Below, piece after piece: positions 13,459 to 59,312 of a stretch of 64,000 nucleotides of DNA (within the stretch, counting starts at the first letter, position 1; each line of letters begins with the position of its first letter). Position numbers and translations under genes: made by a program. This DNA is from Saccharopolyspora soli (lineage in GTDB: Bacteria; Actinomycetota; Actinomycetes; Mycobacteriales; Pseudonocardiaceae). The DNA is taken from contig NZ_JALBWV010000004.1 of NCBI RefSeq assembly GCF_022678645.1, positions 62,001 through 126,000 of the forward strand. The letters run 5' to 3'. The notes under the pieces are model-generated. The model was not told where the DNA came from. It saw only the letters and a list, made by a program, of their open reading frames with translations, and made no database searches.

Positions 13459-14172
13459 GTGCCCTCCTCGCGATGGCAACGTCAAGTTCGTTCCATTAGC
13501 CGCCGCGCACCCGAGCAGAGCAATGGCCACCACGCACCAGCTGTCCAGAATCCCAGACACACGCCCACTGACCGACACGCACAACGCCGACCTGTTCCGG
13601 CTTCCGGTGGGCGGCAGTTGTCCTGGACCGGGCCGCCCTGAGTGAGCCCGACAGCGCCGCAGCCGAAGCGACGGTCCAGGAAGCCAATCTCCACCGGAGA
13701 TCTGCGGCGGATGGTCCGAGATTTCGTGAGAATTCTCGCCCCTTCCCCGATCAGTCCCGACGCGGTCCCGCCGACACCCCAGCCCACAACGCCGAAGTCG
13801 CCCAACGCCATGGCGACGGTTGCGCACCGATCACGCAACAGCAGCCACCGCCACCCCCAGACCGAACCCCCAGCCACCATCCGCCCAGGCCACGGCCCGG
13901 AGGGTGACAGGAAGGTTCCCATGCTACGAAAACGCGGCGGCCGAACCGCACGAATCCGCCGCTGTCCAGCAGCGCGAGCGACTCGGAGCGATCCGCCCCA
14001 CAGGGTCTTAACTCCATAACCGTCGGGAGCTCGCTGGGATCCCCAAGAGGCCGTAGATCGAGACCGCGTGCAGCTTCGGCACTCTGGCGCGACTGGCCGA
14101 GGCGTTGGATGCGCCAGTGTGCGCAGGGCTGACACCGAGCCAGTCGTCACCTACAACACTCTGAGTTCTGAT
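13459..14172. other. Intergenic region with one single-arm copy of the palindromic repeat
   Basis: A 714-bp gap with no convincing gene. It holds a single right arm of the dispersed repeat (TGACAGGAAGGTTCCC core) at 13905-13925, the leftmost copy in the window. Open frames on both strands are compositional shadows with no start sites. Confidence 0.5.
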
Positions 14173-15648
14173 TCACCGCTGGTCGGCTTGAGGGCGTCCC
14201 GACTCGATCATCCAGGACGAGACGGTGCGCACGGCACCACCGGGATCGCTGGTGTCAGCGGCGAGGAAGTCGGTGCGCCACTGGGAGGCATTGATCGTGC
14301 AGAGCGTGTATCCGCTGTTCTCGTCGTAGAAGCGGACTTGCGGGTTCTCCGGCAGCGACGGCTTGGTCAGGTGCGAGGTGGAAGCGGCAGACGAGCTGAT
14401 GCCGGTGGTGAGGAATTCAGTCAGCACCGGCAGGCCGTCGAGGTTCCGGTCCGCTGGAACGTTGTTCACCCACGCGGTATGCCAGTCAGCTGAGAGAAAC
14501 ACCGGATTTCGCGCCCGTGTCTCGGCGAGATCGTCCAACAGCCGCTGCCGAGCCGCTGGATAGCCATTCCACGAGGCGTAATACACGTCCCGGCCCGCAC
14601 CAGCTGCGAGGTCGTACGGCGTGAAAAGCCCTGCTTGCACGATCGGGTTCCATGCCGTGTCGGTGCTGCTCAAGCTCCGGCGCAGCCACTGCTCCTGGCT
14701 CGCGCCGAGCATCGACCGCGCGGGGTCGTGAACTTGCTGGTCATCGCGGAATTGCTGGGTGTCGAGCAGGTGCAGCCGGGCGAGTGCGCCGAAGTCGATG
14801 TTGTGGTGGATGCGCATGCTCGGCCCGTTGGGATGGGCAACCGCGGACATCGGGAGGTGTTCGTAAAACGCCTGGTAGGCGGCGGAACGACGATCGGACG
14901 GGGTTTGTTCGCCGTCCTCGGCTGCTTCGTCGCTGTTGGGTATCACCAGCCACGGCGCGGACGCGTGGGCGTCCTGCAGGTGCGGGTCGAGCCGGTACAG
15001 GGCGTGACGCAAGCGGTAGGACTGCAGATCCGTCGCGTCCGCACGCAGATGGGAGGGGATCTCGGCCAACCGAGGTCGAGCTCCGGTGGTGTAGACGTTC
15101 TCGTAGATGTAGTCGCCGACGTGGACAACGAGGTCGAGGTCTCGGACGGCCATGTCCCGGTAAGCGGTGTAGTAGCCGTCCTCGAATCGCTGGCAGGACG
15201 CGACTGCCATTCGCAACGTGGACACCCTCGCATCCTCTGCTGGCAGGGTCCTGGTGCGGCCGATCCGGCTCGTCGCCCTGCCGCAGTGAAACCGGTAGAA
15301 GTACCAGCGTCCTGGTGCCAACCCGGCAACGTCCACATGCACGCTGTGCGCGGCCTCGGGGAATGCGACTGCAGTGCCTTGCTGCACTACCTTGCAGAAC
15401 CGTTCGTCCTCGGCAATCTGCCACTGCACCGGCAGAGCACGCGGGGCGAGACCACCGTCGATCTCCAGTGGCGACGGTGCCAACCGGGTCCACAGCGTGA
15501 CTCGCGTCGGAGTCGGCGCACCGGACGCGACGCCGAGCGTGAACGGATAGCGATCCCACTCCCCGATGGCGACGCCGGTGCCGAAGTAGAGGCCCGCAGC
15601 GGCACCGAGCCCGCCCCCAAGCACACCGCGCCGCCCGATTCGGATCAC
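14173..15648 (-). CDS. phoD: PhoD-like alkaline phosphatase/phosphodiesterase, with altered metal-site motif
   Basis: About 491 residues. The N-terminus has a twin-arginine-type signal (RIGRRGVLGGG plus hydrophobic run), so Tat export is likely. It follows the PhoD layout: PFTLGVASGAPTPTRVTLWTRL Fn3-like domain, then SCQRFEDGYYTAYRDMA, VVHVGDYIYEN, YRLRHALYRLDPHLQDAHAS, and SADWHTAWVNN near the end. PhoD enzymes use Fe3+ and Ca2+ to hydrolyse phosphomono- and diesters. The usual block after the PW pair, WDDHE, is replaced here by IPNSDE, so metal ligands appear lost; all three frames were checked and a simple frameshift does not restore it. It may be catalytically altered. GTG 15648 has GGAGGG upstream; GTG 15666 is an alternative. 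Confidence 0.82.
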   Translation of the reverse strand: MIRIGRRGVLGGGLGAAAGLYFGTGVAIGEWDRYPFTLGVASGAPTPTRVTLWTRLAPSPLEIDGGLAPRALPVQWQIAEDERFCKVVQQGTAVAFPEAAHSVHVDVAGLAPGRWYFYRFHCGRATSRIGRTRTLPAEDARVSTLRMAVASCQRFEDGYYTAYRDMAVRDLDLVVHVGDYIYENVYTTGARPRLAEIPSHLRADATDLQSYRLRHALYRLDPHLQDAHASAPWLVIPNSDEAAEDGEQTPSDRRSAAYQAFYEHLPMSAVAHPNGPSMRIHHNIDFGALARLHLLDTQQFRDDQQVHDPARSMLGASQEQWLRRSLSSTDTAWNPIVQAGLFTPYDLAAGAGRDVYYASWNGYPAARQRLLDDLAETRARNPVFLSADWHTAWVNNVPADRNLDGLPVLTEFLTTGISSSAASTSHLTKPSLPENPQVRFYDENSGYTLCTINASQWRTDFLAADTSDPGGAVRTVSSWMIESGRPQADQR

Positions 15649-15746
15649 AACACCGACCCTCCCCACACCTCACACCGCGAGCAGAAAACCAGCCGGACAT
15701 GAACGGCCGACACGCCCGCCATGAACACCACGCTGCCGACCGATGC

Positions 15747-15792
15747 AGCATGGGAACCTTCCTGTCAGTTTTGACAGGAAGGTTCCCATGCT
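15747..15792. repeat. Full copy of the dispersed palindromic repeat
   Basis: The cleanest copy: two perfectly complementary 21-nt arms (15747-15767 and 15772-15792; core GGGAACCTTCCTGTCA) around a GTTT loop. It lies in the 373-bp gap between the GntR stop and the phoD start, two minus-strand genes. It could end GntR transcription. The rest of the gap holds no gene. Confidence 0.95.
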
Positions 15793-16021
15793 CCTGGTCG
15801 AACTCGCCCGGCGAGCGGCGTCCAGCCATCAGGACCATCCACTGTGGTTGCCTTCGTGATGCCGCTGATGATGTCGACCGCACGGCGCTGGTCGAGCTCG
15901 GCGGAGCGACAACGTCAGCCGCGATGGTCTGCCCCATAGCCGTATCCGGCAATGCCGTGGAGCTGCGCGGCCCGAATAAGGGCCAAGTACCCCGCCCGAT
16001 TGGCAGTCGGAGAGGTCCCGG

Positions 16022-16777
16022 TCAGCGGGTAGGCCGGGAAGTTCCGCCGGTGAACGGTTCGACTTCGTAGAAGTCGTTGATGTGACGTCGGACGAGGTCG
16101 ACCGCCCGTGATGCGTCGCGCTCCTCGATAGCCCGCACGATTTCTCGATGTTCGGCGCGCACCGTCTTCGCGGTCTCCTGCCAGTCGGCCAGCCGCTCGT
16201 ACGCGTCGATCATCCGCCGTTGAATGGCGGTGCGCAGGGAACTCATCAAGTAGGAAGCCAGCGAATTGCCGGTGGACTCCGCGACACGCACGTGGAATTC
16301 GGTGTCGAGCCGGTTGAAGTCGCGGGCGGTGAGCTCCATCGCGTCCATCTGGTCCAGGATGCCCCGCAATGCCTTGTGATCTTCGACGGTGGCGTTGCGC
16401 GCGGCATCTGCGACCGCCCACTCCTCCAACATCAGCCGGGTGCGGAGCACATCGGTGTCGCTGAAATGCCCGAGCGCCAACTGCATCTTCAGCAGGATCG
16501 TGAAGCCCCCGCCGGGACGGCCGACGAACACTGTCCCGCCATCGGGCCCCCGACCCGGCCGAACGTCGACGATGCCGAGGGCTTCCAGCACCCGCAGCGA
16601 CTCGCGCAGCGATGGGCGGCTGACACCGAGGAGTTGGGAGAGTTCGCGTTCGCTGGGCAGCCGGTCGCCCGGTGCGAGCAGTCCATCGAGCATCCGCTGC
16701 TCGATCTGCGCCATGACCTGCTCATAGGTGCGAACTTTGCGCACCGGCTCCCATGAGCTCTGACTTGCGGAACTCAC
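16022..16777 (-). CDS. FadR-type GntR transcriptional regulator (FCD domain)
   Basis: 251 residues. An N-terminal winged HTH (about 18-85: AQIEQRMLDGLLAPGDRLPS ERELSQLLGVSRPSLRESLR) is followed by the GRG wing and an all-helical FCD effector domain with RLMLEEWAVADAARN, DTEFHVRVAESTGN and EHREIVRAIEERD, including the conserved Asp and His residues that hold a metal in this group. The GTG at 16777 has GAGGAG upstream. It lies 63 bp downstream of, and in the same direction as, the SAF-domain oxidoreductase, so it probably autoregulates that two-gene operon in response to an acid or sugar-acid substrate. The effector is unknown. Confidence 0.86.
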   Translation of the reverse strand: MSSASQSSWEPVRKVRTYEQVMAQIEQRMLDGLLAPGDRLPSERELSQLLGVSRPSLRESLRVLEALGIVDVRPGRGPDGGTVFVGRPGGGFTILLKMQLALGHFSDTDVLRTRLMLEEWAVADAARNATVEDHKALRGILDQMDAMELTARDFNRLDTEFHVRVAESTGNSLASYLMSSLRTAIQRRMIDAYERLADWQETAKTVRAEHREIVRAIEERDASRAVDLVRRHINDFYEVEPFTGGTSRPTR

Positions 16778-16840
16778 GCCTCTCCTCGAATTCCAGCGGT
16801 GGCGTCGGAGACCGCGTCACCTTGCGGGCGCTGCCCGATG

Positions 16841-18181
16841 TCAGCCGCGCATTGTTTGCTCCAACTCCCGCCGCAGTTGCACCGCCAGCACCGAATCGTC
16901 GACTTCGACATCGGTCCAGCGAAGCACGCCGCCTTCGGGAACGTCATTGCACAGTTTGAACCCACGCGCCAATCCCATGGGCAGCGCATTCAACTCCAGC
17001 GACGCCGCGGCTGGAGCAAGCTTGCCGTAGACCATGTAGCCGCCCTCGCCGTCGAGGATTTCCCCGGCCTTGAGCTGGCGTTTGGCCACCGAGATCACGT
17101 CACCTCGGAAGCCGGTCGGGCATCCGGTCGCCTCTCCGCGCACTGCCGCCGAAACGACGCTGACACCGAGTTCGAGGCCGATCATGTGGTACGGCCGGTA
17201 AAGCGAGCCGTAACGGCCGGTCTCGTCGGTGCGCACGCCGTACTCGGCAAAGCATTGGACCGCGTAGTCAGTGCGTGCCTCGAAGGTGACGTAGACGCCC
17301 CAACGCAGATCCCGCACCACTTCGGCGCCGTCGCGGTGCACGCTGGACGCGATTTCCACGGTGCCACGGCGGGTCAACCGGCCGCCGATCTCGGTCGGCC
17401 GGAACACAGTCGACAGGTCGTCGATGCCACATGGTGGGAAGAACAATCCTTCGTCCTGCGGGTGCAGCCCGGTGCCGTTTGCCACGGCTGCCATTTCGAT
17501 CGCCGACTTCGTCCCGTCCAGGAAAGAGTTGAACATCTTCGGGTTGAAGTCCCCGCGGTCCAGCTGTTCCTGCGTGAAACCGTAGTGGTCCCACACCGTG
17601 TCCGGGGTGGATGCGTGGTATTCCGGCAGGTACTTCGTGCCCTTGCCCGCGGCCACCACGTCGAAGCCCACGGTGCGCGCCCAATCGACGAGTTCGCAGA
17701 TCAGTGCTGGCTGGTCGCCGTAAGCCATCGAGTAGACCACGCCAGCCTTCCGGGCCCGTTCGGCCAACAACGGCCCCACCATGCAGTCGGCCTCGACGTT
17801 GACCATCACGATGTGCCGACCGGCCTCGATCGCCCGAACCGCGTGATGGGTGCCAGCCACGGGGTCACCGGTGATCTCCACGACCACGTCCAGTCCAGGG
17901 GCACCTATCAGCGCATCGGCACTGTCCGTGATGTGCGTTCCGCCGCTGCGCAGCGCCTCGTCGAAACTGGCGGCCACGTAGCGCTCGGCGGGCCAACCGG
18001 TGCGATCCAACGCAGCCCGCGCCCGCTCGGGCGACAGGTCGGCCACGCCGACGACGTGCACACCTTCGGTGCTGAGTACCTGGGTGAGGAACATCGAGGC
18101 AAACTTCCCCGCCCCGATCACTCCGACCCTGACCGGCCCGACACGCCGAGCACGTTCACCCAACAAAGTGTGGAGGTTCAT
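16841..18181 (-). CDS. NAD(P)-dependent oxidoreductase with SAF domain (homoserine-dehydrogenase-like)
   Basis: 446 residues. N-terminal Rossmann fold with VRVGVIGAGKFASMFLTQVL and later VVVEITGDPVAGTHHAVRAIEAG, then a substrate domain (KGTKYLPEYHASTPDTVWDH). A C-terminal SAF segment (VSVAKRQLKAGEILDGEGGYMVYG) is like that in AFP, FlgA and altronate hydrolase-type proteins. Members of this family appear in sugar-acid and branched sugar catabolism. ATG 18181 has GAGGAG 4-5 nt upstream; the longer frame to 18253 is rejected. It forms an operon with the downstream GntR regulator. A single left-arm repeat lies upstream at 18272. The exact substrate is not known. Confidence 0.8.
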   Translation of the reverse strand: MNLHTLLGERARRVGPVRVGVIGAGKFASMFLTQVLSTEGVHVVGVADLSPERARAALDRTGWPAERYVAASFDEALRSGGTHITDSADALIGAPGLDVVVEITGDPVAGTHHAVRAIEAGRHIVMVNVEADCMVGPLLAERARKAGVVYSMAYGDQPALICELVDWARTVGFDVVAAGKGTKYLPEYHASTPDTVWDHYGFTQEQLDRGDFNPKMFNSFLDGTKSAIEMAAVANGTGLHPQDEGLFFPPCGIDDLSTVFRPTEIGGRLTRRGTVEIASSVHRDGAEVVRDLRWGVYVTFEARTDYAVQCFAEYGVRTDETGRYGSLYRPYHMIGLELGVSVVSAAVRGEATGCPTGFRGDVISVAKRQLKAGEILDGEGGYMVYGKLAPAAASLELNALPMGLARGFKLCNDVPEGGVLRWTDVEVDDSVLAVQLRRELEQTMRG

Positions 18182-18271
18182 CGAACTCCTCACCGGCCAT
18201 ACGGTCTGACCAAAACGAAAGCCGAAACTAACCCGACCCCCACACCCCGTCAACCCGCCGCCGAGCTTCGC

Positions 18272-18292
18272 AGCATGGGAACCTTCCTGTCA
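18272..18292 (+). repeat. Single-arm copy of the palindromic repeat
   Basis: One left arm (CATGGGAACCTTCCTGTCA) in the divergent gap between the SAF oxidoreductase (minus) and the histidine-rich gene (plus). There is no partner arm within 60 bp, so it cannot form the usual hairpin. Confidence 0.9.
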
Positions 18293-18428
18293 CCCTTGGC
18301 CGCCTATGGCAGCGAGGTCCCTTCATCGCATCCGCTGTTGAGCAGCAATCACGGGCGCCTGAAATATGCGAACGTGCGAATGCGGACTTATTCTCCGGGC
18401 ATCTCCCAAAGCACCAGGAGTGATCGAC

Positions 18429-18725
18429 ATGGCAACCGCGCATCAACAACACGCCGGCCACAACCACACCCACGGCCCAACTTGTGGACACGCAGCAATC
18501 CCGCACGAAGATCACGTCGACTACGTCCACGACGGGCATCTACACCGAGAACACGAAGACCACTACGACGAGTGCGAAGCCAGCGAACACGTCGAACACC
18601 CTCAGCACGACCACGTCCACGGTGAAAACTGCGGCCACGTAGCGATCCCGCACGGCGACCACGTCGACTACTTGCACGACGAACACCGCCACGCGTACCA
18701 CGATGGGCATTACGACGAGCACTGA
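18429..18725 (+). CDS. Histidine-rich, probable zinc-binding protein with two internal repeats
   Basis: 98 residues, about one quarter histidine. The protein is two copies of one module, HGPTCGHAAIPHEDHVDYVH (about 16-35) and HGENCGHVAIPHGDHVDYLH (about 64-83), each followed by an acidic/His stretch. Each copy has one Cys next to His clusters. No TM segment, despite the 'zinc transporter' name often given to such proteins. The ATG at 18429 has AGGAG 8-9 nt upstream; a frame from 18366 is rejected. Likely a metal store or chaperone for Zn, Ni or Co. A Zur/Fur-like palindrome follows the gene, before an acetyltransferase, which supports a metal-homeostasis link. Confidence 0.75.
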   Translation: MATAHQQHAGHNHTHGPTCGHAAIPHEDHVDYVHDGHLHREHEDHYDECEASEHVEHPQHDHVHGENCGHVAIPHGDHVDYLHDEHRHAYHDGHYDEH

Positions 18726-18853
18726 TAGAACCGTCTAAGTCCACGCCTGGGCGCTCGACTCGACCGCGCCGGGAACACCTGTTTGATCCGCACGAGAACT
18801 CCCGCCGCAACCAGACAACTCCGCTTCAACGAGGGCACCGTTCGCCAACTAAT

Positions 18854-18871
18854 TGAAAATGATTATCATTG
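18854..18871. promoter_or_regulatory. Zur/Fur-like operator
   Basis: TGAAAATGATTATCATTG contains the 6-1-6 palindrome AATGAT-T-ATCATT, in an AT-rich island unlike its surroundings. This matches the shape of Fur-family (Zur, Fur, Nur) boxes. It lies about 100 bp upstream of the acetyltransferase start and 130 bp after the histidine-rich gene. Zur is favoured because of the His-rich neighbour, but this is inference. Confidence 0.6.
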
Positions 18872-18907
18872 CGTCACTGGCACAGGTTTCAGCCGCCTCG
18901 GACCGGC

Positions 18908-18928
18908 AGCAAGGGAACCTTCCTGTCA
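18908..18928 (+). repeat. Single-arm copy of the palindromic repeat
   Basis: One left arm (GCAAGGGAACCTTCCTGTCA) between the Zur-like box and the acetyltransferase start, in the 5' leader of the latter. No partner arm nearby. Confidence 0.88.
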
Positions 18929-18971
18929 CTCCGAAACGTCACGTACCACCGAATCGACCGGAAAGGACACA

Positions 18972-19523
18972 ATGCAGCACAACCTGGAACACCGCATCGG
19001 CGACTACGTCGTCCGCGCTGCCCGACCAGCCGACGTCGAGGGCGCACGGAGGGTCATGCTCGACACCTTCTACAAGGAGTTCGGACACGGCTACGACCCG
19101 AGATGGCACGCGGACGTGATCGACATCGAGGACGCCTACCTGCACCATCCCCGGCACGCCCTCTTCGTCGCGGTCCGCGACGAAGAGGTGGCAGCCACAA
19201 CCGCGGTGCGGGCAAACGGCCCCAGCAGCCCGCCGCATCCACAGTGGATCACCGACCGGTACCCGAGCGGCGAGACCGCCCAACTGTTCCGGGTGTATGT
19301 CGACCGCGCCCATCGCCGACACGGACTCGCGCGTGCCCTCGTCTCCATGGCGTGCGACTTCGTCGCCGCAACCGACGGTTACTCCGCGATCTACCTGCAC
19401 ACCAACCCCGCAGTCGAGGGAGCCGAACCCTTCTGGCGCGCGGTGGCAAAGCAGATCCACGACGCACGCGAGGATCCGCAGTACAGCCCGTCGATCCACT
19501 TCGAAATCCCGATCCCACACTGA
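18972..19523 (+). CDS. GNAT family N-acetyltransferase
   Basis: 183 residues. The GNAT fold is visible: YVVRAARPADVEGARRVMLD at the start, the beta4 strand, and the acetyl-CoA pyrophosphate loop in VDRAHRRHGLARALVSMACD (R/Q-x-x-G-x-A variant), followed by AIYLHTNP and a final strand. It would transfer an acyl group from CoA to an amine; no substrate clue is present. The ATG at 18972 has AAAGGA upstream; a frame from 18783 crosses the operator and repeat and is rejected. The Zur/Fur-like box suggests metal-dependent expression. Confidence 0.82.
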   Translation: MQHNLEHRIGDYVVRAARPADVEGARRVMLDTFYKEFGHGYDPRWHADVIDIEDAYLHHPRHALFVAVRDEEVAATTAVRANGPSSPPHPQWITDRYPSGETAQLFRVYVDRAHRRHGLARALVSMACDFVAATDGYSAIYLHTNPAVEGAEPFWRAVAKQIHDAREDPQYSPSIHFEIPIPH

Positions 19524-20045
19524 GCCGAAGCCGAACGCAGGATCCCGCCAGCGAGCGGAAGGTTCCCTTGCTCTGACAGTCGGCCAACGCCTCCCTCCGA
19601 CCCCATCTGCGGCACGGCCGAGCGGGGCCGAACGATCGCAGCCTGGGAACCTTCCGGTCCGCGGTGACAGGAACGTTCCCTTCCTCGCCACCGCGGTCGA
19701 CCTACATTCACAGTTCGCGGGCTTCGGATACCTCCGAGCCTTGGAGAGAATGGGATCACGCTCGTCCGAACAGCTCGAAGCCACGAGTCCAATTCGTGGT
19801 TAAGTCCCATTTATTGCTCTCGTCAGCCATGCTTACATATTTATTCCAGACAACTCAACAAGTCGTCTACCTGCGAAAACAAGCCCTTCGGGCAAGATTT
19901 CCCGCGAGCAGCAATAGACATTTTCAGGTGGACTTCGCAGGCTTCGTCGAGTCAATATCTATTCGCCCCGAAACGATGACCCAGTGACCGGCGCGGCGTT
20001 GTGTGCGACCGGCGTCGACACGGGCGAATAGCAAGGAGACTCGAC
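19524..20045. other. Intergenic region: two degenerate palindromic repeats and LPMO promoter
   Basis: A 522-bp gap without a gene. A truncated right arm (GGAAGGTTCCCTTGCT) lies at 19557-19572. A decayed two-armed copy lies at 19640-19685, with arms differing at several sites. The last 250 bp is clearly AT-richer than the flanks and is the likely promoter and leader of the LPMO gene. Confidence 0.6.
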
Positions 20046-20837
20046 GTGAATGTGCGCCGCAAGGCCACCGCAGCCGCTGTTCTCGGCGGCTTGTCCGTTG
20101 TTGGCACGCTGCTGGCCCCGCAGGCCGCTTTCGCCCACGGCGACATGCAGGCACCAGCTGGTCGCGCCTACACCTGTTTTCTGGAAGGCGCGGAGAGCCC
20201 GGACTCCGAGGGCTGCAAGGGAGTTGTCGCCGAGAACGGCACCGCCCCGATCTACGACTGGATGAGCAACCGGATCGGCGACTCCAATGGCCGACACCAA
20301 GAGCTGATCCCGGACGGAAAGCTCTGCAGCGCCAACAATCCGACGTACTCCGGGTTCGACTCCCCGGCCACGGCCTGGCCGACTACCCAACTGCAGACCG
20401 GCGACGTCAACCTTGAATTCAAGGCAACCGCCAAGCACAAGGGCGGCTTCCAGGTCTTCATCACCAAGGACGGCTGGGATCCGGCGAAGCCGCTCGCGTG
20501 GGGTGACCTGGAGAAGATCGCGGATGTCGCCAGCCCGCAGGAGACCGCCGAGGGCTACTCGATCCCCGTGAAGATCCCGGAGGGCAAGACCGGCCAGCAC
20601 ATGCTCTACACGATCTGGCAGCGCACCGACAGCCCGGAGGCGTTCTACTCCTGCTCGGACGTGGTCTTCGATCAGCAGGGCACTGCGCAGACCGGCGCCC
20701 TGGAGGCGCAACAACCCGCGACTGCGACGACGACTTCGCACGACCACTCCACCCATGAGGCGACGCAGCCCACCGCTCCGGCACCCGCCGCCGAAGCACC
20801 TTCCTTCTGGGACAAGTTGATGAACTGGTTCGCCTGA
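20046..20837 (+). CDS. Secreted AA10 lytic polysaccharide monooxygenase
   Basis: 263 residues. A signal peptide ends AAFA, exposing His31 as the mature N-terminus (HGDMQAPAGRAYTC). With His131 (KATAKHKGGFQVFITKDGWD) this forms the copper histidine brace of AA10 (CBM33) enzymes. DSPEAFYSCSDVVF carries the aromatic axial residue region. AA10 enzymes cleave crystalline chitin or cellulose oxidatively outside the cell. No carbohydrate-binding module follows; instead there is a short Thr/His/Pro-rich tail (TTTSHDHSTHEATQ). The GTG at 20046 has AAGGAG 7 nt upstream. A full palindromic repeat 23 bp after the stop separates it from convergent actP. Confidence 0.92.
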   Translation: MNVRRKATAAAVLGGLSVVGTLLAPQAAFAHGDMQAPAGRAYTCFLEGAESPDSEGCKGVVAENGTAPIYDWMSNRIGDSNGRHQELIPDGKLCSANNPTYSGFDSPATAWPTTQLQTGDVNLEFKATAKHKGGFQVFITKDGWDPAKPLAWGDLEKIADVASPQETAEGYSIPVKIPEGKTGQHMLYTIWQRTDSPEAFYSCSDVVFDQQGTAQTGALEAQQPATATTTSHDHSTHEATQPTAPAPAAEAPSFWDKLMNWFA

Positions 20838-20860
20838 CCGGGACCAACAGCCCCTGGGGG

Positions 20861-20906
20861 AGCAAGGGAACCTTCCTGTCAAAGGTGACAGGAAGGTTCC
20901 CTTGCT
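20861..20906. repeat. Full copy of the palindromic repeat at a convergent gene end
   Basis: Perfect 21-nt arms (20861-20881, 20886-20906) with loop AAGG, between the stops of the LPMO gene (plus) and actP (minus). The position fits a bidirectional terminator. Confidence 0.95.
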
Positions 20907-20916
20907 TGCGGAGCGG

Positions 20917-23729: not shown

Positions 23730-26681
23730 GTGAGCAGCGGACTCGAACGCACACCCGCGAAGAGAACTTGGGTGTCCGCGTGGTCGCGCGCCATGTCGAA
23801 GATCACCGGGCGGATCATCAATTGGCGCCACTGGAGACTACCGGTCAAGATCACCGCAGTTGTACTCGTTCCGGTGATTTTCACCCTCGTGCTCGGTGTT
23901 CTGCAGATCAGCGGCCAGACCCGACAAGCCAACGAATACGCCAACATCGGCCGGGTGGTCACCGCTGGCAGCGCGGTGCGCTTGGCCATCGACCGCCTGC
24001 AGCGGGAACGCAGCCAGGCCGCCGAGTTCCTGGTGCGCGGGCCGATAGCCGCACCGGAAGTGCAGGAGCGCTTCACCGCATCGGACCGCGCCCTCGAAGA
24101 CATCCAGCGCCTGCTGCGGGCCGCCCCGGACAGCGAGTCGGTCAGGTTCGCCCGGCAGGAAACCGATCGGCAGCTCACCGAACTCGCTCCGCTGCGCAAA
24201 CAAGTCCTGGGCACCCACACGGATCCGGGGGTGGCGATCAACTCCTACACCGAGCTCATCGGTGTCCTGCTGGCGCTCGACCGCACCCTGATCAGCCAAA
24301 TCTCGTCGTCGCAACTGGTTTCCACCGCGACCACCGCGCACGAACTGGCCCAGATCAGCGAAGAGGTGCAACTCCAGCAGGCGTTGGTGCTCGTCGGGTT
24401 GACCCGCGGCAGCTTCACCACCGACAACCTCGCTCGGCTCGCGTCCAGTGAATCCCGCCGCACGGCAGCTGTCCAGGAGTTCCGCGCCGCCGCCACACCG
24501 CAACAGCGGCTGCGCTACGACCAGCTCTACGCCAAACCCGAGGTCCCGGCGAGGGAGACCTCGGTCCAGCTGGCGATGGCCGAACGCGACAGCGGCACAT
24601 CGCGGATCTCTCCGCTGCTGGTGTCATCGGCAACCTGGAAGGACCAGTCGCGAATATCCCTTGAAGCGTTGAACGCGCTCCAGGCTCGGCTCGACAGCGA
24701 CCTGCACAACACCGCCTTCACCTTGCAAGACACCGCCAGCAACATGGCCGGGCTGGAGTCGGTGATCCTGCTGTCCGCGCTGCTCATCGCGGGGGCAATC
24801 GTCGTAGTGGTCGCCAGACAACTGCTCGGGTCACTCGACGTGCTGCGACGCAGCGCACTGGATACCGCGAACTACCAGCTGCCCCAAGCGGTCGCCAACA
24901 TCCGTGCCGGTCACAACACGCTGGCACCCGTCCAACCGGTTCCGGTGAACACCATCGATGAGATCGGCGAAGTTGCGCGGGCCTTCGACGACGTGCACGC
25001 CCAGGCCGTCAACCTCGCCACCGAACAGGCCGAACTGCGCCGCAGTTACAGCGACTCGTTCGTCAACGTGTCGCGGCGCAGCCAGAGCTTGCTGGAGCGG
25101 CAGCTCCGACTGTTCGATCAGCTCGAACGCGACGAGGAAGACCCCGACCAGTTGGCGACGCTGTTCCAGCTGGACCACCTGGCGACCCGGATGCGCCGCA
25201 ACAACGAGAACCTCATGGTGCTCTCGGGGACGGACCCCGCCCGGCGGTTCACCCAGCCGACCTCGCCCGGCGATCTGATCCGAGCCGCGGTGTCGGAGAT
25301 CGAGCACTACCCGCGGGTGATCGTCCAGCCGCTACCGAACGCCAAAATCGTCGGATATGCGGCCAGCGACCTGGTGCGGCTGCTGGCCGAACTGCTGGAC
25401 AACGCCGCGAACTTCTCCGCGCCAGATACCCAGGTCGCAGTTTCCGGGCAACTGCGCAGCGACGGATCGCTGGGTCTCGACATCGTCGATCGCGGTATCG
25501 GCATGACCGATGCCGAACTCGCCGCGGTGAACCAACGGCTGACCAGCGATGAAGAGATCAAGCTGTCCACGTCTCGACGCATGGGCCTGTTCGTCGTCGG
25601 TCAGCTCGCCACCCGGCACGGCATCCGGGTCGAACTGCGTCCCGGACCCGATGAGGTCGGCGTGCACGTCGCAGTGAGCGTGGCACCGGAGCTGATGCTG
25701 GACGCGGCGGGCCCAGCACCGGACGACATGGTGCCCGACGATCGCGACGAGGACACGCTCGTCGAGGAGTTCGACTGGGAGGCAGCCGAACAGGATGCGG
25801 CCAGCCAACACCACTTGGTGAACAACGGCTCCCACCTGCTCCAGCCACCAGCCGAAGGCGCCCAACCTCAGCAGCCACCGAGCGACCTGTCCGACACCGA
25901 CGAGATCATCCCCGCCTTCTCGGACCCCGCGCACCACAACGACGCCCCGGCCACCACACCGATCTTCGACGACCTCGCCTCCGCGTGGTTCCAGGCAGCA
26001 CCGCCCGCCCCCTGGCTGCAAGCCCGGCCCACCCCCACCACCCACTCACCCAATCCCCCGGCAGACGTTGCGAGCAAGGGAACCTTCCTGTCACCGATGA
26101 CAGGAAGGTTCCCTTCCACACAGCCAACACCGAACGGACACAGCCAGAAGACGTGGATATTCGCCAATGACCAGGCTTGGCGCCGGGCCGAGGAGGTTGC
26201 CGGCGCCGAACCCGCCGACTACACCTCGGCTGGACTTCCCTTGCGTGTTCCGCAGGCGAATTTGGTGGCAGGCAGTGCCGAAGTTGAAAAAGCCGAGCGC
26301 TCCCGCCTACCCCGCGATCCGCAGCTGGTTCGTGGCCGGTTGGCCAGTTTCCAGGCCGGTGTCCGACGTGGCCGCCACCGCCAGCAGGCGGCGCTCGGCA
26401 GCTCCACCGCACCAACCGGGGTGTCGCAAGTGGACTGGAACTCGCGTGCCAACAGCCACGCCGAAGCGCCGGGGACCACGTCCGTCGACTACACCTCGGC
26501 CGGGCTGCCCAGGCGATCCCCAAGAGCACAACTGGTACCGGGACCGGCCACCGAGTCGGTGGCGAAACCGCCTCGCGACGCAGATCTGATGCGCGGCCGA
26601 CTAGCGAGCTTCCAACGCGGCGTCCGCGAAGGCAAGCACAGTCTCCGCGCCCCGCAGCACTCGGCCGATGAACGCCGGTGA
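23730..26681 (+). CDS. cvnA: Conservon 3 sensor-histidine-kinase-like ATPase CvnA with NIT-type ectodomain, carrying an in-frame repeat insertion
   Basis: 983 residues from GTG 23730 (AAAGGA 7 nt upstream; 23691 is an in-frame alternative). TM1 near residues 38-60, an about 285-residue helical NIT-like ectodomain (LAIDRLQRERSQAAEFLVRG), TM2 near 343-365, a HAMP-like linker (IDEIGEVARAFDDVH), then a GHKL ATPase with N-box AELLDNAANFS and G-box VDRGIGM. No phospho-acceptor His. The tail holds the usual conservon end motif twice: DYTSAGLPLRVPQANLV...RGRLASFQAGVRRG and DYTSAGLPRRSPRAQLV...RGRLASFQRGVREG. Just upstream, around residue 782, a full palindromic repeat is translated as SKGTFLSPMTGRFPS. 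First gene of the A-B-C-D operon. Confidence 0.88.
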   Translation: MSSGLERTPAKRTWVSAWSRAMSKITGRIINWRHWRLPVKITAVVLVPVIFTLVLGVLQISGQTRQANEYANIGRVVTAGSAVRLAIDRLQRERSQAAEFLVRGPIAAPEVQERFTASDRALEDIQRLLRAAPDSESVRFARQETDRQLTELAPLRKQVLGTHTDPGVAINSYTELIGVLLALDRTLISQISSSQLVSTATTAHELAQISEEVQLQQALVLVGLTRGSFTTDNLARLASSESRRTAAVQEFRAAATPQQRLRYDQLYAKPEVPARETSVQLAMAERDSGTSRISPLLVSSATWKDQSRISLEALNALQARLDSDLHNTAFTLQDTASNMAGLESVILLSALLIAGAIVVVVARQLLGSLDVLRRSALDTANYQLPQAVANIRAGHNTLAPVQPVPVNTIDEIGEVARAFDDVHAQAVNLATEQAELRRSYSDSFVNVSRRSQSLLERQLRLFDQLERDEEDPDQLATLFQLDHLATRMRRNNENLMVLSGTDPARRFTQPTSPGDLIRAAVSEIEHYPRVIVQPLPNAKIVGYAASDLVRLLAELLDNAANFSAPDTQVAVSGQLRSDGSLGLDIVDRGIGMTDAELAAVNQRLTSDEEIKLSTSRRMGLFVVGQLATRHGIRVELRPGPDEVGVHVAVSVAPELMLDAAGPAPDDMVPDDRDEDTLVEEFDWEAAEQDAASQHHLVNNGSHLLQPPAEGAQPQQPPSDLSDTDEIIPAFSDPAHHNDAPATTPIFDDLASAWFQAAPPAPWLQARPTPTTHSPNPPADVASKGTFLSPMTGRFPSTQPTPNGHSQKTWIFANDQAWRRAEEVAGAEPADYTSAGLPLRVPQANLVAGSAEVEKAERSRLPRDPQLVRGRLASFQAGVRRGRHRQQAALGSSTAPTGVSQVDWNSRANSHAEAPGTTSVDYTSAGLPRRSPRAQLVPGPATESVAKPPRDADLMRGRLASFQRGVREGKHSLRAPQHSADERR
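26073..26118. repeat. Full palindromic repeat inside the cvnA coding sequence of conservon 3
   Basis: Arms at 26073-26093 and 26098-26118 with loop CCGA; only the last bases of the right arm have diverged. It is read in frame without a stop codon, in the disordered part of the C-terminal tail, between a Pro-rich stretch and the first end motif. All other copies in the window are intergenic. Confidence 0.93.
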
Positions 26682-26712
26682 CAACCCGAATCAGTGAGGA
26701 CAGGAGGCGCCG

Positions 26713-27153: not shown

Positions 27154-27160
27154 GGAAGGG

Positions 27161-27751: not shown

Positions 27752-27827
27752 ATCTTCCGCGGGGGTCTCGTTGAGCAGCGCGCAACCCGCAGACACCAAC
27801 TTGACTCGATAACTGAGGTGGGCAGAC

Positions 27828-28430: not shown

Positions 28431-28439
28431 CGGGAATGC

Positions 28440-28485
28440 AGCAAGGGAACCTTTCTGTCGTCGCCCGGCAGAAAAGTTCCCTTCC
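28440..28485. repeat. Full palindromic repeat at a convergent gene end
   Basis: Two arms with several compensated and uncompensated changes (left GCAAGGGAACCTTTCTGTC; right GCAGAAAAGTTCCCTTCC). It fills almost the whole gap between the cvnD stop (plus) and the htrA stop (minus). The changes keep the stem largely paired, as a working terminator would. Confidence 0.88.
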
Positions 28486-28491
28486 ACACAC

Positions 28492-29781: not shown

Positions 29782-29873
29782 GACATCAACAGTGCCTCGC
29801 CGAGCTGAGAACTACCTTGGCGCTTCCTGTGACTTCATCGAAACCACGCGGCGATGAGCTCCGGCAGTTGTCG

Positions 29874-29919
29874 GCAAGGGAACCTTCCTATCACCGGGCG
29901 GCAGAAAGGTTCCCATGCT
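29874..29919. repeat. Full palindromic repeat in a divergent promoter gap
   Basis: 46-bp copy with a GTCA to ATCA change in the left arm and a C/G change in the right arm. It lies between htrA (minus, start 29781) and the AbiEi-like gene (plus, start 30022), where a terminator role is not expected. Confidence 0.88.
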
Positions 29920-30021
29920 CGTGCGCTAGTGGTTGGCGGGCGAAAATGGGGTGCCCGACACACTTCCAGAACTGGATAAATCAGCGAAGCTGTGGGCGCC
30001 GCATGCCGGATAGTGCTGAAC

Positions 30022-30684: not shown

Positions 30685-30772
30685 AAGATCCGCAGTGTTG
30701 CGCCGAGGGCTGGTGCTCAACTGATTTACCAGGCAGCATGCCAGGGCATCGACCGCTGTCGTGGGAGGTGCT

Positions 30773-32419: not shown

Positions 32420-32519
32420 TCCTCCACACGGCGACCAGAGCCGCGAAGTTGCCGGAGCCAGCGCTAAAGCCAGCGTCGAAGCTGACGCGGAAGCGCCGAG
32501 CCACGGCCTGACTGGAAAG

Positions 32520-32564
32520 AGCATGGGAACCTTCCTGTCACATGCACGCCATAGGTTCCCAGCT
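32520..32564. repeat. Two-armed, partly decayed palindromic repeat
   Basis: Left arm intact (32520-32540). The right arm is shortened to ATAGGTTCCCAGCT (32551-32564) and pairs only in its outer half. It lies between the amidohydrolase stop and the DUF3311 gene, which are codirectional. Confidence 0.85.
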
Positions 32565-32594
32565 GAGTCGGATGCAACGGGTCCGGAGGGGTAC

Positions 32595-34297: not shown

Positions 34298-34308
34298 TCC
34301 TGGTCGGG

Positions 34309-34355
34309 AGCAAGGGAACCTTCCTGTCAGAGCGTGACTGAAAGGTTCCCTTGCT
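34309..34355. repeat. Full palindromic repeat at a convergent gene end
   Basis: Arms 34309-34329 and 34335-34355, loop GAGCG, two mismatches in the right arm. It lies between the stops of the SSS transporter (plus) and the patatin gene (minus), leaving only about 11 bp on each side. Confidence 0.92.
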
Positions 34356-34365
34356 CCCAGCCTGG

Positions 34366-35310: not shown

Positions 35311-35372
35311 CGGCAATGTCCTTTCTACTCGCGTCCTCCACCGAGGCTAGCGGCGAGCAGCCGCATCCCGCG

Positions 35373-35807: not shown

Positions 35808-35904
35808 ACCAACCAGGATGCCGCACACCGCTTCGACCAGACTCCCGGCACTCTGCCCCACGTTATTGAGCCCAGCGCCGGGCAGGACGCCGTCGGACCG
35901 TCGA

Positions 35905-35950
35905 AGCAAGGGAACCTTCCTGTCACCTGTGGCAGGAAGGTTCCCTTGCT
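35905..35950. repeat. Full palindromic repeat
   Basis: Arms 35905-35925 and 35930-35950, loop CTGT, with a single GGCAGG/TGACAGG change at the inner end. It lies between the serine hydrolase stop (35968) and the arfB start, both minus strand, so it could end the hydrolase transcript. Confidence 0.93.
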
Positions 35951-35967
35951 CCCACTCCAGACCGGGA

Positions 35968-37406: not shown

Positions 37407-37427
37407 TGACAGGAAGGTTCCCATGCT
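37407..37427 (-). repeat. Single-arm copy of the palindromic repeat
   Basis: One right arm (TGACAGGAAGGTTCCCATG core) between the CPBP protease stop (37441) and the serine hydrolase start, both on the minus strand. No partner arm. Confidence 0.9.
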
Positions 37428-37440
37428 CTCGTCGCAATCC

Positions 37441-38476: not shown

Positions 38477-38582
38477 TGACAGGAAGGTTCCCATGCTCGC
38501 TTCGTACCTCGACTCGGTGGGCTGGCATGAAACGAAGAAGGGAACCTTCCTGTCGATGGCGTGACAGGAAGGTTCCCTTGCT
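38477..38582. repeat. Two palindromic repeats in one gap: one single arm and one full copy
   Basis: A single right arm lies at 38477-38497. A two-armed copy follows at 38536-38582, whose left arm has lost one base (AGAAGGGAACC). Both sit between the PBP stop (38592) and the CPBP start. The spacing of 85 bp between the two right arms hints at local duplication. Confidence 0.92.
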
Positions 38583-38591
38583 GCGGATTGA

Positions 38592-42018: not shown

Positions 42019-42211
42019 TGACAGGAAGGTTCCCTTCCTGCAGAAATGCGACCCGCCCCAGGGGCGGATGACAGAACAGTTCTCCTATTCCGAAGCTCCA
42101 GCCAGGTCGAGCATCGACGAGTTCGAGTCACAGGAAAGTTCCCATGCTGCGGTCGCCTGACCGGAGCGCCAGCGATGCGGGCCGGGGTGGTGACAGGAAG
42201 GTTCCCTTGCT
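42019..42211 (-). repeat. Cluster of four same-orientation single-arm repeats
   Basis: Right arms at 42019-42039, 42069-42089 (degenerate, TGACAGAACAGTTC), 42128-42148 (TCACAGGAAAGTTCCC) and 42191-42211. All face the same way with start-to-start distances of 50, 59 and 63 bp. The intervening sequences are unrelated to each other by eye. The last copy ends one base before the MFS stop codon. Confidence 0.88.
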
Positions 42212-42212
42212 C

Positions 42213-43364
42213 TCAGTCGCGGCGGGGGTGGCGGTTTGTGGCGAGGGGAACGCAGAGGGTGACGAGGGTCGCTGCGATGGCGAAGGTTGTCGGATAGCCC
42301 GACAAGGTGATCAGGATTCCGAAGCCCATTGAGCCGAGGCCGTTGCCCGCGTCGTAGGCGATGTTCCAGGCCGTGCTGGCCGGACCAGATTCGGCACGTT
42401 CGAACATCACGACCAGGGTGATGTTCTGCACCGCGCCGAACCCGATCCCGGAAGCAACCGCGCCCAGCAGAGCCAGCGGGTGCACACCCCCAGCCGCGAC
42501 CGCGAACAGACCCGTGCCCAACCCGGTCAGCACCACGGCTGGAACCAGCACCCGGTGTTGGCCGAGCCGATCGCCCAACTGCCCGGCGGTCCAACGGCCG
42601 AGCATGGTGGCGGCGCCGAAAGCCATCAGCGCCGCCGGTGCCATCGATCCGGCGACGGCCAGCGGCAGGAACGCGACGAGACCGCCAGCCGCGACTGCCG
42701 CGGCAGTCATGACCGTCCAGAGCGGCAGCAACGCGACGGGGAATGCAGGCGTGCCGGACCGCTCAGTGGGCCGGACCGGCACCCGTGACATGCCCAGCAC
42801 CGCGGCAGTCGCCACCACCGGCAACGCCCCGGCGATCCAGAACAGCGGAGCGAACCCGATCTGCTGGGCCAACCACACCCCAGCCGGGAGGAACAGAACG
42901 TTCGGCAGACCGACCGACAACCCGTAAAGGCCAGCCGCACGGCCGCGCTGCCTGGCGGGCACGAGTTCGGCGACCAGCGCGCCGCCCGTCACCGTGAGCA
43001 GGCCGAAGCCCACCCCTCGCAGGCCGGACACGCCAAGCAGCAGCCACAGATCGCTGGACAGCACGAACAACGGCGTCGGCAGGCCGATCAGGACGGTGCC
43101 CAGCCCGAAGGCGAGGCGGTGGTCGATCCGCTTCAGCAGCCACGGCATGCCCAGCTGGGTCAGCACTGTGACGAGCATGAAGACCGCGTTCGTCGCACCC
43201 GCCGCGACCTCACCCGCGCCTCCCGCTACCGCCCACAACGGGACGACCGGCAGCAGCAGTCCGTATCCGGCGAAGCCACCGACTGTAGCCACCAGCAACA
43301 ACCGAAAAGACCGGAGCTGCAACGGCGTCCTGTCCTTGGCACGCGATTCAACCGGTACTCGCAC
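42213..43364 (-). CDS. Major facilitator superfamily transporter
   Basis: About 383 residues, 12 TM helices. MFS features: LRSFRLLLVATVGGFAGYGLLLPVVPLW at TM1, GVSGLRGVGFGLLTVTGGALVAELVPARQRGRAAGLYGLSVGLPN at TM4-5 (motif close to the efflux signature), and a central loop RVPVRPTERSGTP. Most likely an exporter of a small molecule. GTG 43364 is chosen because TM1 follows at a normal distance; the frame to 43598 has no ribosome site. Divergent from the M14 peptidase gene, 134 bp away. Confidence 0.83.
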   Translation of the reverse strand: MRVPVESRAKDRTPLQLRSFRLLLVATVGGFAGYGLLLPVVPLWAVAGGAGEVAAGATNAVFMLVTVLTQLGMPWLLKRIDHRLAFGLGTVLIGLPTPLFVLSSDLWLLLGVSGLRGVGFGLLTVTGGALVAELVPARQRGRAAGLYGLSVGLPNVLFLPAGVWLAQQIGFAPLFWIAGALPVVATAAVLGMSRVPVRPTERSGTPAFPVALLPLWTVMTAAAVAAGGLVAFLPLAVAGSMAPAALMAFGAATMLGRWTAGQLGDRLGQHRVLVPAVVLTGLGTGLFAVAAGGVHPLALLGAVASGIGFGAVQNITLVVMFERAESGPASTAWNIAYDAGNGLGSMGFGILITLSGYPTTFAIAATLVTLCVPLATNRHPRRD

Positions 43365-44810: not shown

Positions 44811-44935
44811 TGACAGAAAGGTTCCCATACTGCGGGAACTGGGGCGCCGGGCCGGGCGACGATGACAGGAAGGTTCCCTTGCTGCGGAAATGCGGCACGG
44901 ACCAAGGCGGGGAGTGACAGGAAGGTTCCCTTGCT
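44811..44935 (-). repeat. Cluster of three repeat arms with exact 52-bp period
   Basis: Same-orientation right arms at 44811-44831 (two changes), 44863-44883 and 44915-44935 (both perfect). Start-to-start distance is 52 bp in both intervals, with 31-bp spacers that share GCGG-type beginnings (TGCGGGAACTGGGG, GCGGAAATGCGGC) but then differ. Located after the M14 peptidase stop. Confidence 0.9.
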
Positions 44936-45324
44936 CCGGCATGAGACGAGCTCCGCGGGCGGGTGTTGATCTTGGAGCGTGGGCTTGCGTTTGGACCGGA
45001 GCGGGTCGCGGCTCGCACTCGGCGTGGGCAGCAGCAGGGTGGGCGTCGTGCACCTCTCCTGACTGACGCGCGGATGTTCATCGCCGCACATCTGGCGGGT
45101 GCGATCTGTTCAGACGCGGCATCGACGCGAGCTACGGCCTTTGGATCGGCGGTGTGGCTGTGTCGCAGCAACAGCGATGCCACACCGCTGGGGATCGCAT
45201 GCACCCAGCACGCAGGCGACCGGTGCGTGGGAACGGCCGTAGCGCGATCACGTCCGGTCGTGAACGAATCCGCGCACGACGGTACGGCTGGGCGTCCTTC
45301 GGACGTCGAAGTGTGTCGTGCGGC
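44936..45324. other. Intergenic region, no gene seen
   Basis: 389 bp between the repeat cluster and the stop of the convergent gene at 45325. Open frames on both strands have no ribosome site or motif. Confidence 0.5.
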
Positions 45325-51128: not shown

Positions 51129-51172
51129 TCGTGAGTGCTGGTGGTCGTTCCAACGACCACCAGCACTCACGA
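51129..51172. repeat. 44-bp perfect palindrome, unrelated to the main repeat family
   Basis: Perfect 21-nt arms (51129-51149, beginning TCGTGAGTGCTGGTGG, and 51152-51172) with a CC centre. It lies between the fadB stop (51178) and the aminotransferase start on the minus strand. It may end fadB transcription. The GTGAGTGCTGG...CCAGCACTCAC shape is unlike the GGGAACCTTCC family. Confidence 0.95.
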
Positions 51173-57929: not shown

Positions 57930-57948
57930 CGACGAGGAAGTAAAGCCC

Positions 57949-59070
57949 ATGAATTCCCCGAAAATCCGCCGACGTGAGACCGACGGAGCGACCCCGCGCC
58001 GGATCGCCTCGATAGCCGTCAGCGTCACGCTGGCGTCGGCGCTGGGCCTGCAAGTCGGTGTGGCCCACGCGCACCCCGGTCACCTGGGGCGTCCTGTGGT
58101 GTCGGCACCGATCGCGACGGCGCCGGTATACGCCGACGGCTGGATGCAGCTCGCGCCGATCGCAGGTGGGCCGCGCCAGGAGCACAGCGTCGCCGCGATC
58201 GGCCAGGACGTCTACGTGATTGGCGGCATCCGGCCCGACGGGATCGGCGGTTCCGTCACCGTCGGCGATGTCGAGGTCTACGACACCAAGCGGAACACCT
58301 GGCGTAACGCGGCTCCGCTACCAGTGGCGATGAACCATCCGAACGTCGCAGCGGTCGGTGGCAAGCTCTACGTCCTCGGCGGTCTGTCCGGTGGCGCGTC
58401 GTGGCAGGCGTTGCGCGACAGCTATGTCTACGATCCCGCGACGAGCAGGTGGACACCGCTGCCACCGATGCCCGAGGGCACCGAGCGAGGCAGCGCCGCC
58501 ATGGGTGTGTTCGACACGCGGATCTATCTCGCCGGGGGCATGCGCACCCTGACCCCAGGCCCTGGCGGCCTGCAGGACACGGTCGCCACGGTCAGCGCCT
58601 ACGACGTCACCACTGGCCGCTGGTCCAACCTGCCCGACCTGCCCGAGGCCCGCGACCACGTCGGCGGCGCGGTCGTCGGCCACACCCTGTACGTGCTCGG
58701 CGGCCGCGACCGCGGCCAGATCAACGTGCGTGACACCGTCTACGCCCTCGACCTGCGTGGCGGCCAGTGGGTCGAACGCGCCCCGATGCCGACCGCGCGG
58801 GGCGGTATCGCGGCCGCCGCCGTCGGTGGGGTCATCTACACCTTCGGTGGGGAAGGCAACGTGGTTGATGGCGTGAACACCGTCTTCGACCAGACCGAGG
58901 CATACGACACCCAGCATGACCGGTGGCAGCAGTTGGCCCCCATGCCAGTACCCCGCCACGGCACCGCTGCCGTCGCTGTCGGCGACACCATCCACATCCC
59001 CGGCGGCGGCAACGCAGGCGGCGCCGCTCCGATGGACGTCAACGACGCCTACCGTCCCCACATCCGCTGA
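57949..59070 (+). CDS. Secreted kelch-repeat (beta-propeller) protein
   Basis: 373 residues. Signal peptide (ASIAVSVTLASALGLQVGVAHA), then about six kelch blades with the signature of double Gly followed by Tyr and Trp: YVIGGIRPDGIGG, LYVLGGLSGGASW, IYLAGGMRTLTPG, LYVLGGRDRG, IYTFGGEGNVVDG and IHIPGGGNAGG. The blades run to the end, so it is a stand-alone propeller. No galactose-oxidase metal site is seen (Cys/Tyr cross-link residues absent). ATG 57949 has GAGGAAG 9 nt upstream. Possibly surface-bound sugar or protein binding; function not known. Confidence 0.88.
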   Translation: MNSPKIRRRETDGATPRRIASIAVSVTLASALGLQVGVAHAHPGHLGRPVVSAPIATAPVYADGWMQLAPIAGGPRQEHSVAAIGQDVYVIGGIRPDGIGGSVTVGDVEVYDTKRNTWRNAAPLPVAMNHPNVAAVGGKLYVLGGLSGGASWQALRDSYVYDPATSRWTPLPPMPEGTERGSAAMGVFDTRIYLAGGMRTLTPGPGGLQDTVATVSAYDVTTGRWSNLPDLPEARDHVGGAVVGHTLYVLGGRDRGQINVRDTVYALDLRGGQWVERAPMPTARGGIAAAAVGGVIYTFGGEGNVVDGVNTVFDQTEAYDTQHDRWQQLAPMPVPRHGTAAVAVGDTIHIPGGGNAGGAAPMDVNDAYRPHIR

Positions 59071-59097
59071 TCCCGACGGTCCCGCAACACCGTGGGT

Positions 59098-59148
59098 CGG
59101 CCCGCCGTGCGGTGCCGGGGGTTCGCCTCCGGTCCGTGCGGCGGGCCG
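59098..59148 (+). terminator. Long hairpin after the kelch gene
   Basis: Outer arms CGGCCCGCCG (59098-59107) and CGGCGGGCCG (59139-59148) are perfect; an inner CCGG/CCGG pair and partly matching GCGGTGC/GTGC sequences fill the 31-nt middle. It starts 28 bp after the kelch stop. Confidence 0.75.
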
Positions 59149-59291
59149 CCGCCGTGCGTCCTCCGCGCAGATCCTCAACGTCCCCGCAGCGGGGCCCATA
59201 CCAGACGGACTGACCAAAAGGGACTATCACGAATTTTCTGCCATATCGGGCTGATCGCGTGTGGGCTCAACGGAATTTTTCCAGCGTTGGG

Positions 59292-59312
59292 TGACAGGAA
59301 GGTTCCCTTGCT
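59292..59312 (-). repeat. Single-arm copy of the palindromic repeat, outlying
   Basis: One perfect right arm (TGACAGGAAGGTTCCC core) between the kelch and TetR genes. It is the only copy after 45 kb in the window. Confidence 0.9.

Follow-up and report, generated by a model that had tools for sequence, protein, structure and literature searches.

Regionally confined arrays of a 25-bp dyad repeat in Saccharopolyspora and related genera: candidate sites for organisation of a mid-arm chromosomal segment

Introduction

Short palindromic sites that recur along a bacterial chromosome belong to several described systems, against which we compare a family of dyad repeats found in a 64,000-nucleotide stretch of the Saccharopolyspora soli genome. 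In published accounts, matS is a 13-bp target with 23 repeats in an 800-kb domain of Escherichia coli (PMC3330122), and in ParB/parS systems, for example that of Corynebacterium, clustered and mostly non-coding palindromic sites seed a nucleoprotein complex (PMC8494293, PMC7083940). MaoP/maoS is a site-specific system that organises one region of the E. coli chromosome (PMC5023128). REP, BIME and REPIN elements are short palindromic extragenic units that occur singly and in inverted pairs (PMC3116915, PMC3733652) and have a GTAG or CGTC tag at one end (PMC3733652).

The stretch analysed, hereafter the window, covers positions 62001-126000 of contig C129 in the 9.35-Mb draft genome of S. soli (G000). 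Its repeats share a core, GGGAACCTTCCTGTCA, whose copies were found to be concentrated in one chromosomal region in genomes of three genera. Our preferred reading, to which we give a probability of roughly 0.55, is that the repeats are recognition sites of a candidate dimeric protein that would organise this region by a logic resembling that of matS or parS.

The family is similar to the MatP/matS system of the Ter macrodomain in that many short dyad sites lie in one chromosomal region and are absent elsewhere. However, matS is found in Ter whereas the present region is mid-arm, with dif elsewhere in four genomes (G034, G014, G020 and G003), and the present site is 25 bp long, occurs in arrays and has 40-128 copies. 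Clustered, mostly non-coding palindromic sites are shared with ParB/parS, and Streptomyces also has parS clusters, but parS is 16 bp long and near oriC, whereas the site studied here differs in sequence and is found about 0.8-1.4 Mb away from dnaA in four genomes. MaoP/maoS acts on the Ori region, while scores of sites away from oriC are found here. The likeness to REP, BIME and REPIN elements consists of short palindromic, mostly extragenic units, either single or in tail-to-tail pairs. The present family differs from them in its confinement, its inherited positions, the absence of a Y1 transposase from most of the carriers searched and the lack of a GTAG or CGTC tag. If our reading holds, the family would work like matS or parS, although we claim membership in neither because position and sequence differ and the binder is only predicted. 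The region-limited site systems known to us mark the origin or the terminus. Neither the 16-base core nor its complement occurs in the literature searched, and no description of a region-limited repeat family in Saccharopolyspora was found there, most subscription papers being outside the search in both cases.

Repeat family and its confinement to one region

A total of thirty-one matches to the core were found in the window at up to three mismatches (20 exact, 25 with at most one mismatch), whereas 100 dinucleotide shuffles of the window averaged 0.50 matches and never exceeded three. The repeat family described in an earlier note on this DNA is thus confirmed to be real and far above chance, and the span given there, 13905-59312, is correct. 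Ten hairpins and fourteen single arms had been reported; the fourteen single arms were recovered, but we count nine tail-to-tail pairs. The arms of the window pairs match each other while the loops vary, as had been noticed. The window has no Rfam match at the gathering score.

When G000 was searched genome-wide at up to one mismatch, 128 copies were found with the core and none with a reversed control pattern. All but three of them (125 of 128) are on the three contigs C129, C133 and C163, which make up 328 kb of 9.35 Mb and are successively collinear with a single stretch in G014 and in G034, with 196 and 140 reciprocal best hits respectively. Because the three contigs hold collinear core genes, they are unlikely to be contamination or a foreign replicon. 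The same confinement was observed in six other genomes, with 119 of 119 copies of G014 in 3856801-4144563, 40 of 41 of G034 in 3836464-4001948, 86 of 86 of G020 in 1589797-1780142, 42 of 42 of G003 in 5477998-5681198, 78 of 78 of G161 in 5292635-5472739 and 66 of 66 of G177 in 1001414-1166472. The last two genomes represent a third genus (g68), and all thirty of their fetched loci match genes of the three G000 contigs. In the draft G007, all thirty copies were listed and lie on C23 (26), C34 (3) and C62 (1). Copies are therefore restricted to one region in every genome fully listed on long contigs; the copy-by-copy check left out G001, G002, G004-G006, G008-G012, G015-G018, G021, G143 and G192. 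The sole copy of G034 outside the region sits behind phoX, with no recognised regulator beside it. No copy at up to three mismatches was found in 80 kb at the mirror place on the other arm of G014.

The region contains genes for an ATP synthase alpha/beta subunit, an EPSP-synthase-family enzyme, presumably murA, and a 2-oxoglutarate dehydrogenase, which we call kgd. A dif-type site was found once per genome in all 23 genomes. Judged from the placement of DnaA and the dif-type site in G034, G014, G020 and G003, the region lies about 0.8-1.4 Mb from dnaA and roughly one third of the way down an arm that is the same in all four, namely the arm behind dnaA read forwards; this position is arithmetic from coordinates, with the length of G003 taken as 6.6 Mb. 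The region is mid-arm, neither Ori nor Ter, and a role as an origin or terminus marker was rejected because dnaA and the single dif-type site of these four genomes lie elsewhere.

Structure and spacing of the unit

Conserved bases were found upstream of the core in the aligned copies. Each repeat unit measures 25 bp and forms an imperfect dyad, roughly TGNNAGNAAGG-GAA-CCTTCCTGTCA; every single arm is part of such a dyad. The G034 consensus TGACAGTAAGGGAACTTTCCTGTCA is symmetric at nine of twelve positions, a level reached by 13 of 20000 shuffles, and the genus consensus, approximately TGCGAGCAAGGGAACCTTCCTGTCA, at eight of twelve (97 of 20000 shuffles), with seven in the T variant of G014. The conserved columns of three genomes hold neither a GTAG nor a CGTC tag.

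Tail-to-tail neighbours are spaced by 20-22 bp in 16 of 19 cases in G000 and by exactly 20 bp in 15 of 17 cases in G034, and therefore their dyad centres are 29-31 bp apart. Among 241 same-strand neighbours less than 110 bp apart, counted with 58 of the 86 G020 copies transcribed by hand, twelve are at 31 bp, twelve at 37, seventy-five at 40-43, seventeen at 46-48 and fifty-two at 52-54. In G161 and G177, a 29-bp distance between units was seen in several arrays. Taken together, the preferred spacings lie near 29-31, 41-42 and 52-53 bp.

Folded as RNA, all four pairs examined were far better than their shuffles (z -7.7 to -9.1), whereas all four tested single arms were no better than theirs. 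A dyad acting at the DNA level fits the family better than an RNA hairpin, because the single arms, which do not fold, are the majority in both G000 and G014. Neither this dyad within the single arms, nor the regional confinement, nor the one pair in a coding frame was within the view of the earlier note.

Distribution among relatives and inheritance

Among the nearest relatives, copy numbers range from 30 to 128 in 20 of the 22 genus members, the exceptions being G013 and G019 with one each. Across 249 genomes of the family, at least thirty copies were found in twenty-one and 0-2 in the remaining 228; the site-rich genomes are 16 of 17 in the own genus, the only one in g14 and four of six in g68. 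Exact two-arm matches in named records amount to ten stretches in four records, all of Saccharopolyspora. G033 has no copy genome-wide at up to one mismatch and none in 320 kb of its orthologous region at up to three. A drifted form, GGGAACTTTTCTGCC, likewise in tail-to-tail pairs, was found in G019.

G000 and G014 were compared in 59 orthologous gaps no shorter than 60 bp; 58 agree (16 with copies, 42 without) and one is discordant, while comparison with G034 gave copies in both for three gaps, in neither for twenty-two and disagreement for seven. Judged from these comparisons, the site positions are shared by descent. Arrays occupy largely the same gaps, with one to seven units, in G000, G014, G004, G006, G008, G021 and, more sparsely, G016. 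Where the sequences could be aligned, identity is 0.88-0.92 in sites and 0.70-0.77 in inter-site spacers in all four genome pairs. An isolated edge copy or array, 28-46 kb from the next, was found from the coordinates in G000, G014, G034, G003, G020, G161 and G177, its location on the kgd side being established for all of these but G003 and G020. The edge array is in the same gap in G000, G014, G021 and G034, and absent there in G013, G033 and G019.

The draft G013, the sister of G014 and G004 (91% nucleotide identity), is nested among carriers. The span shared with G014 holds 61 copies in that genome, none of which falls in DNA that aligned to G013, and at most 35 bp were found in place of the array in eight of the sixteen array-bearing gaps. 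This loss of arrays is the least explained of our observations. Only three matches at up to three mismatches were found in the 115 kb read, two of them forming one T-tailed hairpin with a variant core (C77:113719-113755; L160), which is the only pair-like relative in that DNA and may show what the family arose from.

Two accessory islands of G000 that are absent from G006 differ in their content of sites. The island at C129:41.7-75.9 kb (about 34 kb), which overlaps the window at 1-13.9 kb, has no copy, and the island at C129:117-132 kb (about 15 kb) has eleven. Spread of copies into accessory DNA at 16-21 kb of the window was rejected, as G006 has that gene block including its sites.

The earlier note had compared the family with REP/BIME elements. 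This likeness stands for a mostly intergenic family of single and double arms, but the idea of a mobile repeat was not supported. A non-autonomous REPIN-like repeat with no host function, its enzyme encoded elsewhere and its spread limited by local copying, would suit the REPIN-like look of the tail-to-tail pairs, the unit number that varies between arrays, the eleven copies in the 15-kb island and a four-unit array present only in G014 among seven genomes with that gap (gap 186); the short G013 gaps could then be read as excision. We nevertheless consider this explanation unlikely, given the confinement in three genera, the agreement of 58 of 59 gaps and the roughly 34 kb of accessory DNA that is free of copies although it lies within the region. 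Transposase gene content argues in the same direction. The family of the TnpA-REP (RAYT, Y1) transposase, PF01797, was found by gene presence in G000, G006 and G016 and was absent from the other seven of ten site-rich genomes searched, while site-poor G013 and G033 also have it, and RAYT-driven mobility was rejected on these absences. A 281-base array used as the query matched no phage record, and among plasmids it gave one weak match, 35 bp long and inside a P450 gene. Two site patterns had no match in viral contigs, and a plasmid, phage or viral source was rejected on these searches.

Placement of the repeats relative to genes

At up to three mismatches, 316 of the 329 copies in the fetched G000, G014 and G034 regions are outside called genes and thirteen within them; the gene caller was home-made and missed two open reading frames of the window with Pfam matches, so that all counts by gap class are approximate. 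In tandem gaps, 130 of 179 copies are closer to the upstream stop than to the downstream start. Single copies in these gaps are not tied to gene direction, with 79 in the same orientation and 56 in the opposite one. Divergent gaps have copies least often in G000 (9 of 54) and G014 (9 of 62), less clearly so in G034 (5 of 29). In the window, our gene calls agree with the earlier note that the repeats at 20861 and 28440 lie between convergent stops and the one at 29874 in a divergent gap, whereas the repeat at 34309 is between convergent stops only if the patatin-like open reading frame at 34366-35316, which has a Pfam match, is real. Copies exceed chance and are not solely at gene ends, so that neither of the outcomes named in the earlier note as refuting its mobile-repeat idea was observed.

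Clustered dyad sites outside genes, in a region with its own gene set, might also be operators or insulators of a local regulator acting on many of the region's genes. This is improbable, since the sites avoid the promoter side in tandem gaps, occupy divergent gaps least often and take their orientation independently of gene direction, and the genes of the region are functionally unrelated.

Although the pairs fold strongly, eight of the sixteen G000 pairs lie in convergent gaps and G013 retains its T-tailed hairpin of similar core, we regard a locally arisen set of transcription terminators or mRNA-stabilising hairpins as very improbable, because the single arms do not fold, none of the eight terminator-like calls in the scanned span 13800-33000 coincides with a copy, kgd of G014 is followed by a separate hairpin with a T run ahead of the sites (by eye) and the confinement would be left unexplained. 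That a pure terminator role does not suffice had been argued before, and these results agree.

One pair of the window lies in a coding frame. Its encoded peptide, around SKGTFLSPMTGRFPS, is conserved within an otherwise variable linker in G014 and G034 and is replaced in the site-free G033. This single case shows the pattern that retention of the DNA itself would produce.

A candidate role in regional chromosome organisation

In the organising role that we favour, the repeats would mark one region of about 165-330 kb, and each 25-bp dyad would be the site of a dimeric DNA-binding protein. The sites, outside genes and commoner near stop codons, would be offered to it as singles, tail-to-tail pairs and arrays of up to seven. 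The spacings appear to favour one helix face, and adjacent dimers could therefore assemble into a single nucleoprotein complex. Dozens of these complexes, spread over one arm at a distance from oriC and dif, could bridge, anchor or compact the region. The outcome would be a regional organisation analogous to the action of MatP/matS or ParB/parS. The same-region confinement in seven genomes of three genera, the dyad symmetry, the preferred spacings, the shared positions with varying unit number, the better conservation of sites than of spacers, the common edge array and the coding pair kept in three genomes all point to such a role. More tentatively, the family may represent a regional chromosome-organising system of Saccharopolyspora-type actinobacteria, in which a predicted dimeric protein occupies dozens of phased dyad arrays over a fixed mid-arm segment, neither Ori nor Ter, and a close sister species can lack the whole array set.

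Several observations weigh against an organising role. The spacings are best described by a period of about 11 bp (R 0.45, n 215), but the related genomes share ancestry and are not independent, and the neighbours at 37 and 46-48 bp fall out of phase. Motif-free gaps are 0.81-0.89 identical; conservation of the sites thus exceeds that of the spacers but not clearly that of other gaps (sites against motif-free gaps: 0.918/0.876, 0.879/0.862, 0.882/0.889 and 0.886/0.813). Three genomes of g13 (G013, G033 and G096) and two of g68 (G090 and G122) are without the system, which is thus dispensable, and the clean wholesale loss in G013 is unlike the slow decay predicted after loss of a binder. A domain search of some of the region's proteins gave no binder candidate, and among genes well kept in the G000, G014 and G034 regions but missing in G033 only two poorly conserved ones were found, one of them for a subtilisin-inhibitor family protein. 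A gene of the region as the binder was accordingly rejected; the binder, if any, would be encoded elsewhere.

Should the organising role be correct, three genera would have retained a mid-arm region with dozens to about 130 marking sites, and a close sister species that lacks the arrays would provide a natural plus/minus comparison for regional organisation. The pattern of presence and absence among species should then point to the binder in a whole-proteome comparison.

Annotated repeats and other observations

Table 1. Dyad repeats annotated in the window, in window coordinates.
Feature	Position	Strand	Basis
Single 25-bp dyad site, exact core	13905..13929	-	core search
Tail-to-tail pair, both cores exact (starts 15752/15772), hairpin with 21-nucleotide perfect arms	15743..15796	.	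core search, folding
Single site, exact core	18268..18292	+	core search
Single site, exact core	18904..18928	+	core search
Degenerate single site, 3 mismatches	19552..19576	-	core search
Tail-to-tail pair, 2 and 1 mismatches (core starts 19645/19665)	19636..19689	.	core search
Tail-to-tail pair, both cores exact (starts 20866/20886), between convergent stops	20857..20910	.	core search, gene calls, folding
Tail-to-tail pair (starts 26078/26098), within sensor kinase open frame (23793-26681)	26069..26122	.	also in G014 and G034 orthologues
Tail-to-tail pair, 2 and 4 mismatches (starts 28445/28466), between convergent stops	28436..28490	.	core search, gene calls
Tail-to-tail pair, 1 and 3 mismatches (starts 29878/29899), divergent gap	29869..29923	.	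core search, gene calls
Single site, exact core	32516..32540	+	core search
Tail-to-tail pair, 0 and 2 mismatches (core starts 34314/34335)	34305..34359	.	core search, folding
Tail-to-tail pair, 0 and 1 mismatch (core starts 35910/35930)	35901..35954	.	core search, folding
Single site, exact core	37407..37431	-	core search
Single site, exact core	38477..38501	-	core search
Tail-to-tail pair, 1 and 0 mismatches (core starts 38540/38562)	38531..38586	.	core search
Three-site same-strand array (starts 42019, 42128, 42191) and a fourth site at 42069 with 4 mismatches	42019..42215	-	core search
Three-site same-strand array, 52-bp steps (44811, 44863, 44915), two units folded	44811..44939	-	core search, folding
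Single site, exact core	59292..59316	-	core search

Other repeats were met in the course of the searches. A hairpin family, AAGGGGCCTTTCATTGC, has 222 copies in G036 at up to two mismatches on many contigs (for example L122-L126). It was met in the orthologous region and served as a positive control, the first 100 copies listed lying on 19 contigs, and the search therefore detects dispersed families. A second family of G036, around GCATTCAGAGGAC, occurs seven times in 100 kb. Two further intergenic families were found in 74 kb of G027 (L127-L130), namely CCGAAGTTGRCGATGTTCGG, which forms inverted pairs, and AGTAAGGGGCACC, with units 30 bp apart in places. On the right arm of G014 (L170-L173), an 80-kb stretch contains ATTTCAATTGAAA six times and ATTTCCATTGAAA five times, which may be a further local palindromic motif. 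Nineteen matches to the Y1 transposase family, including several fragments, were obtained in G006, compared with 0-1 in the 13 other genomes searched. Finally, a perfect 21-bp inverted repeat with a two-base loop and no relation to the GGGAACCTTCCTGTCA family was found at 51129-51172 of the window.

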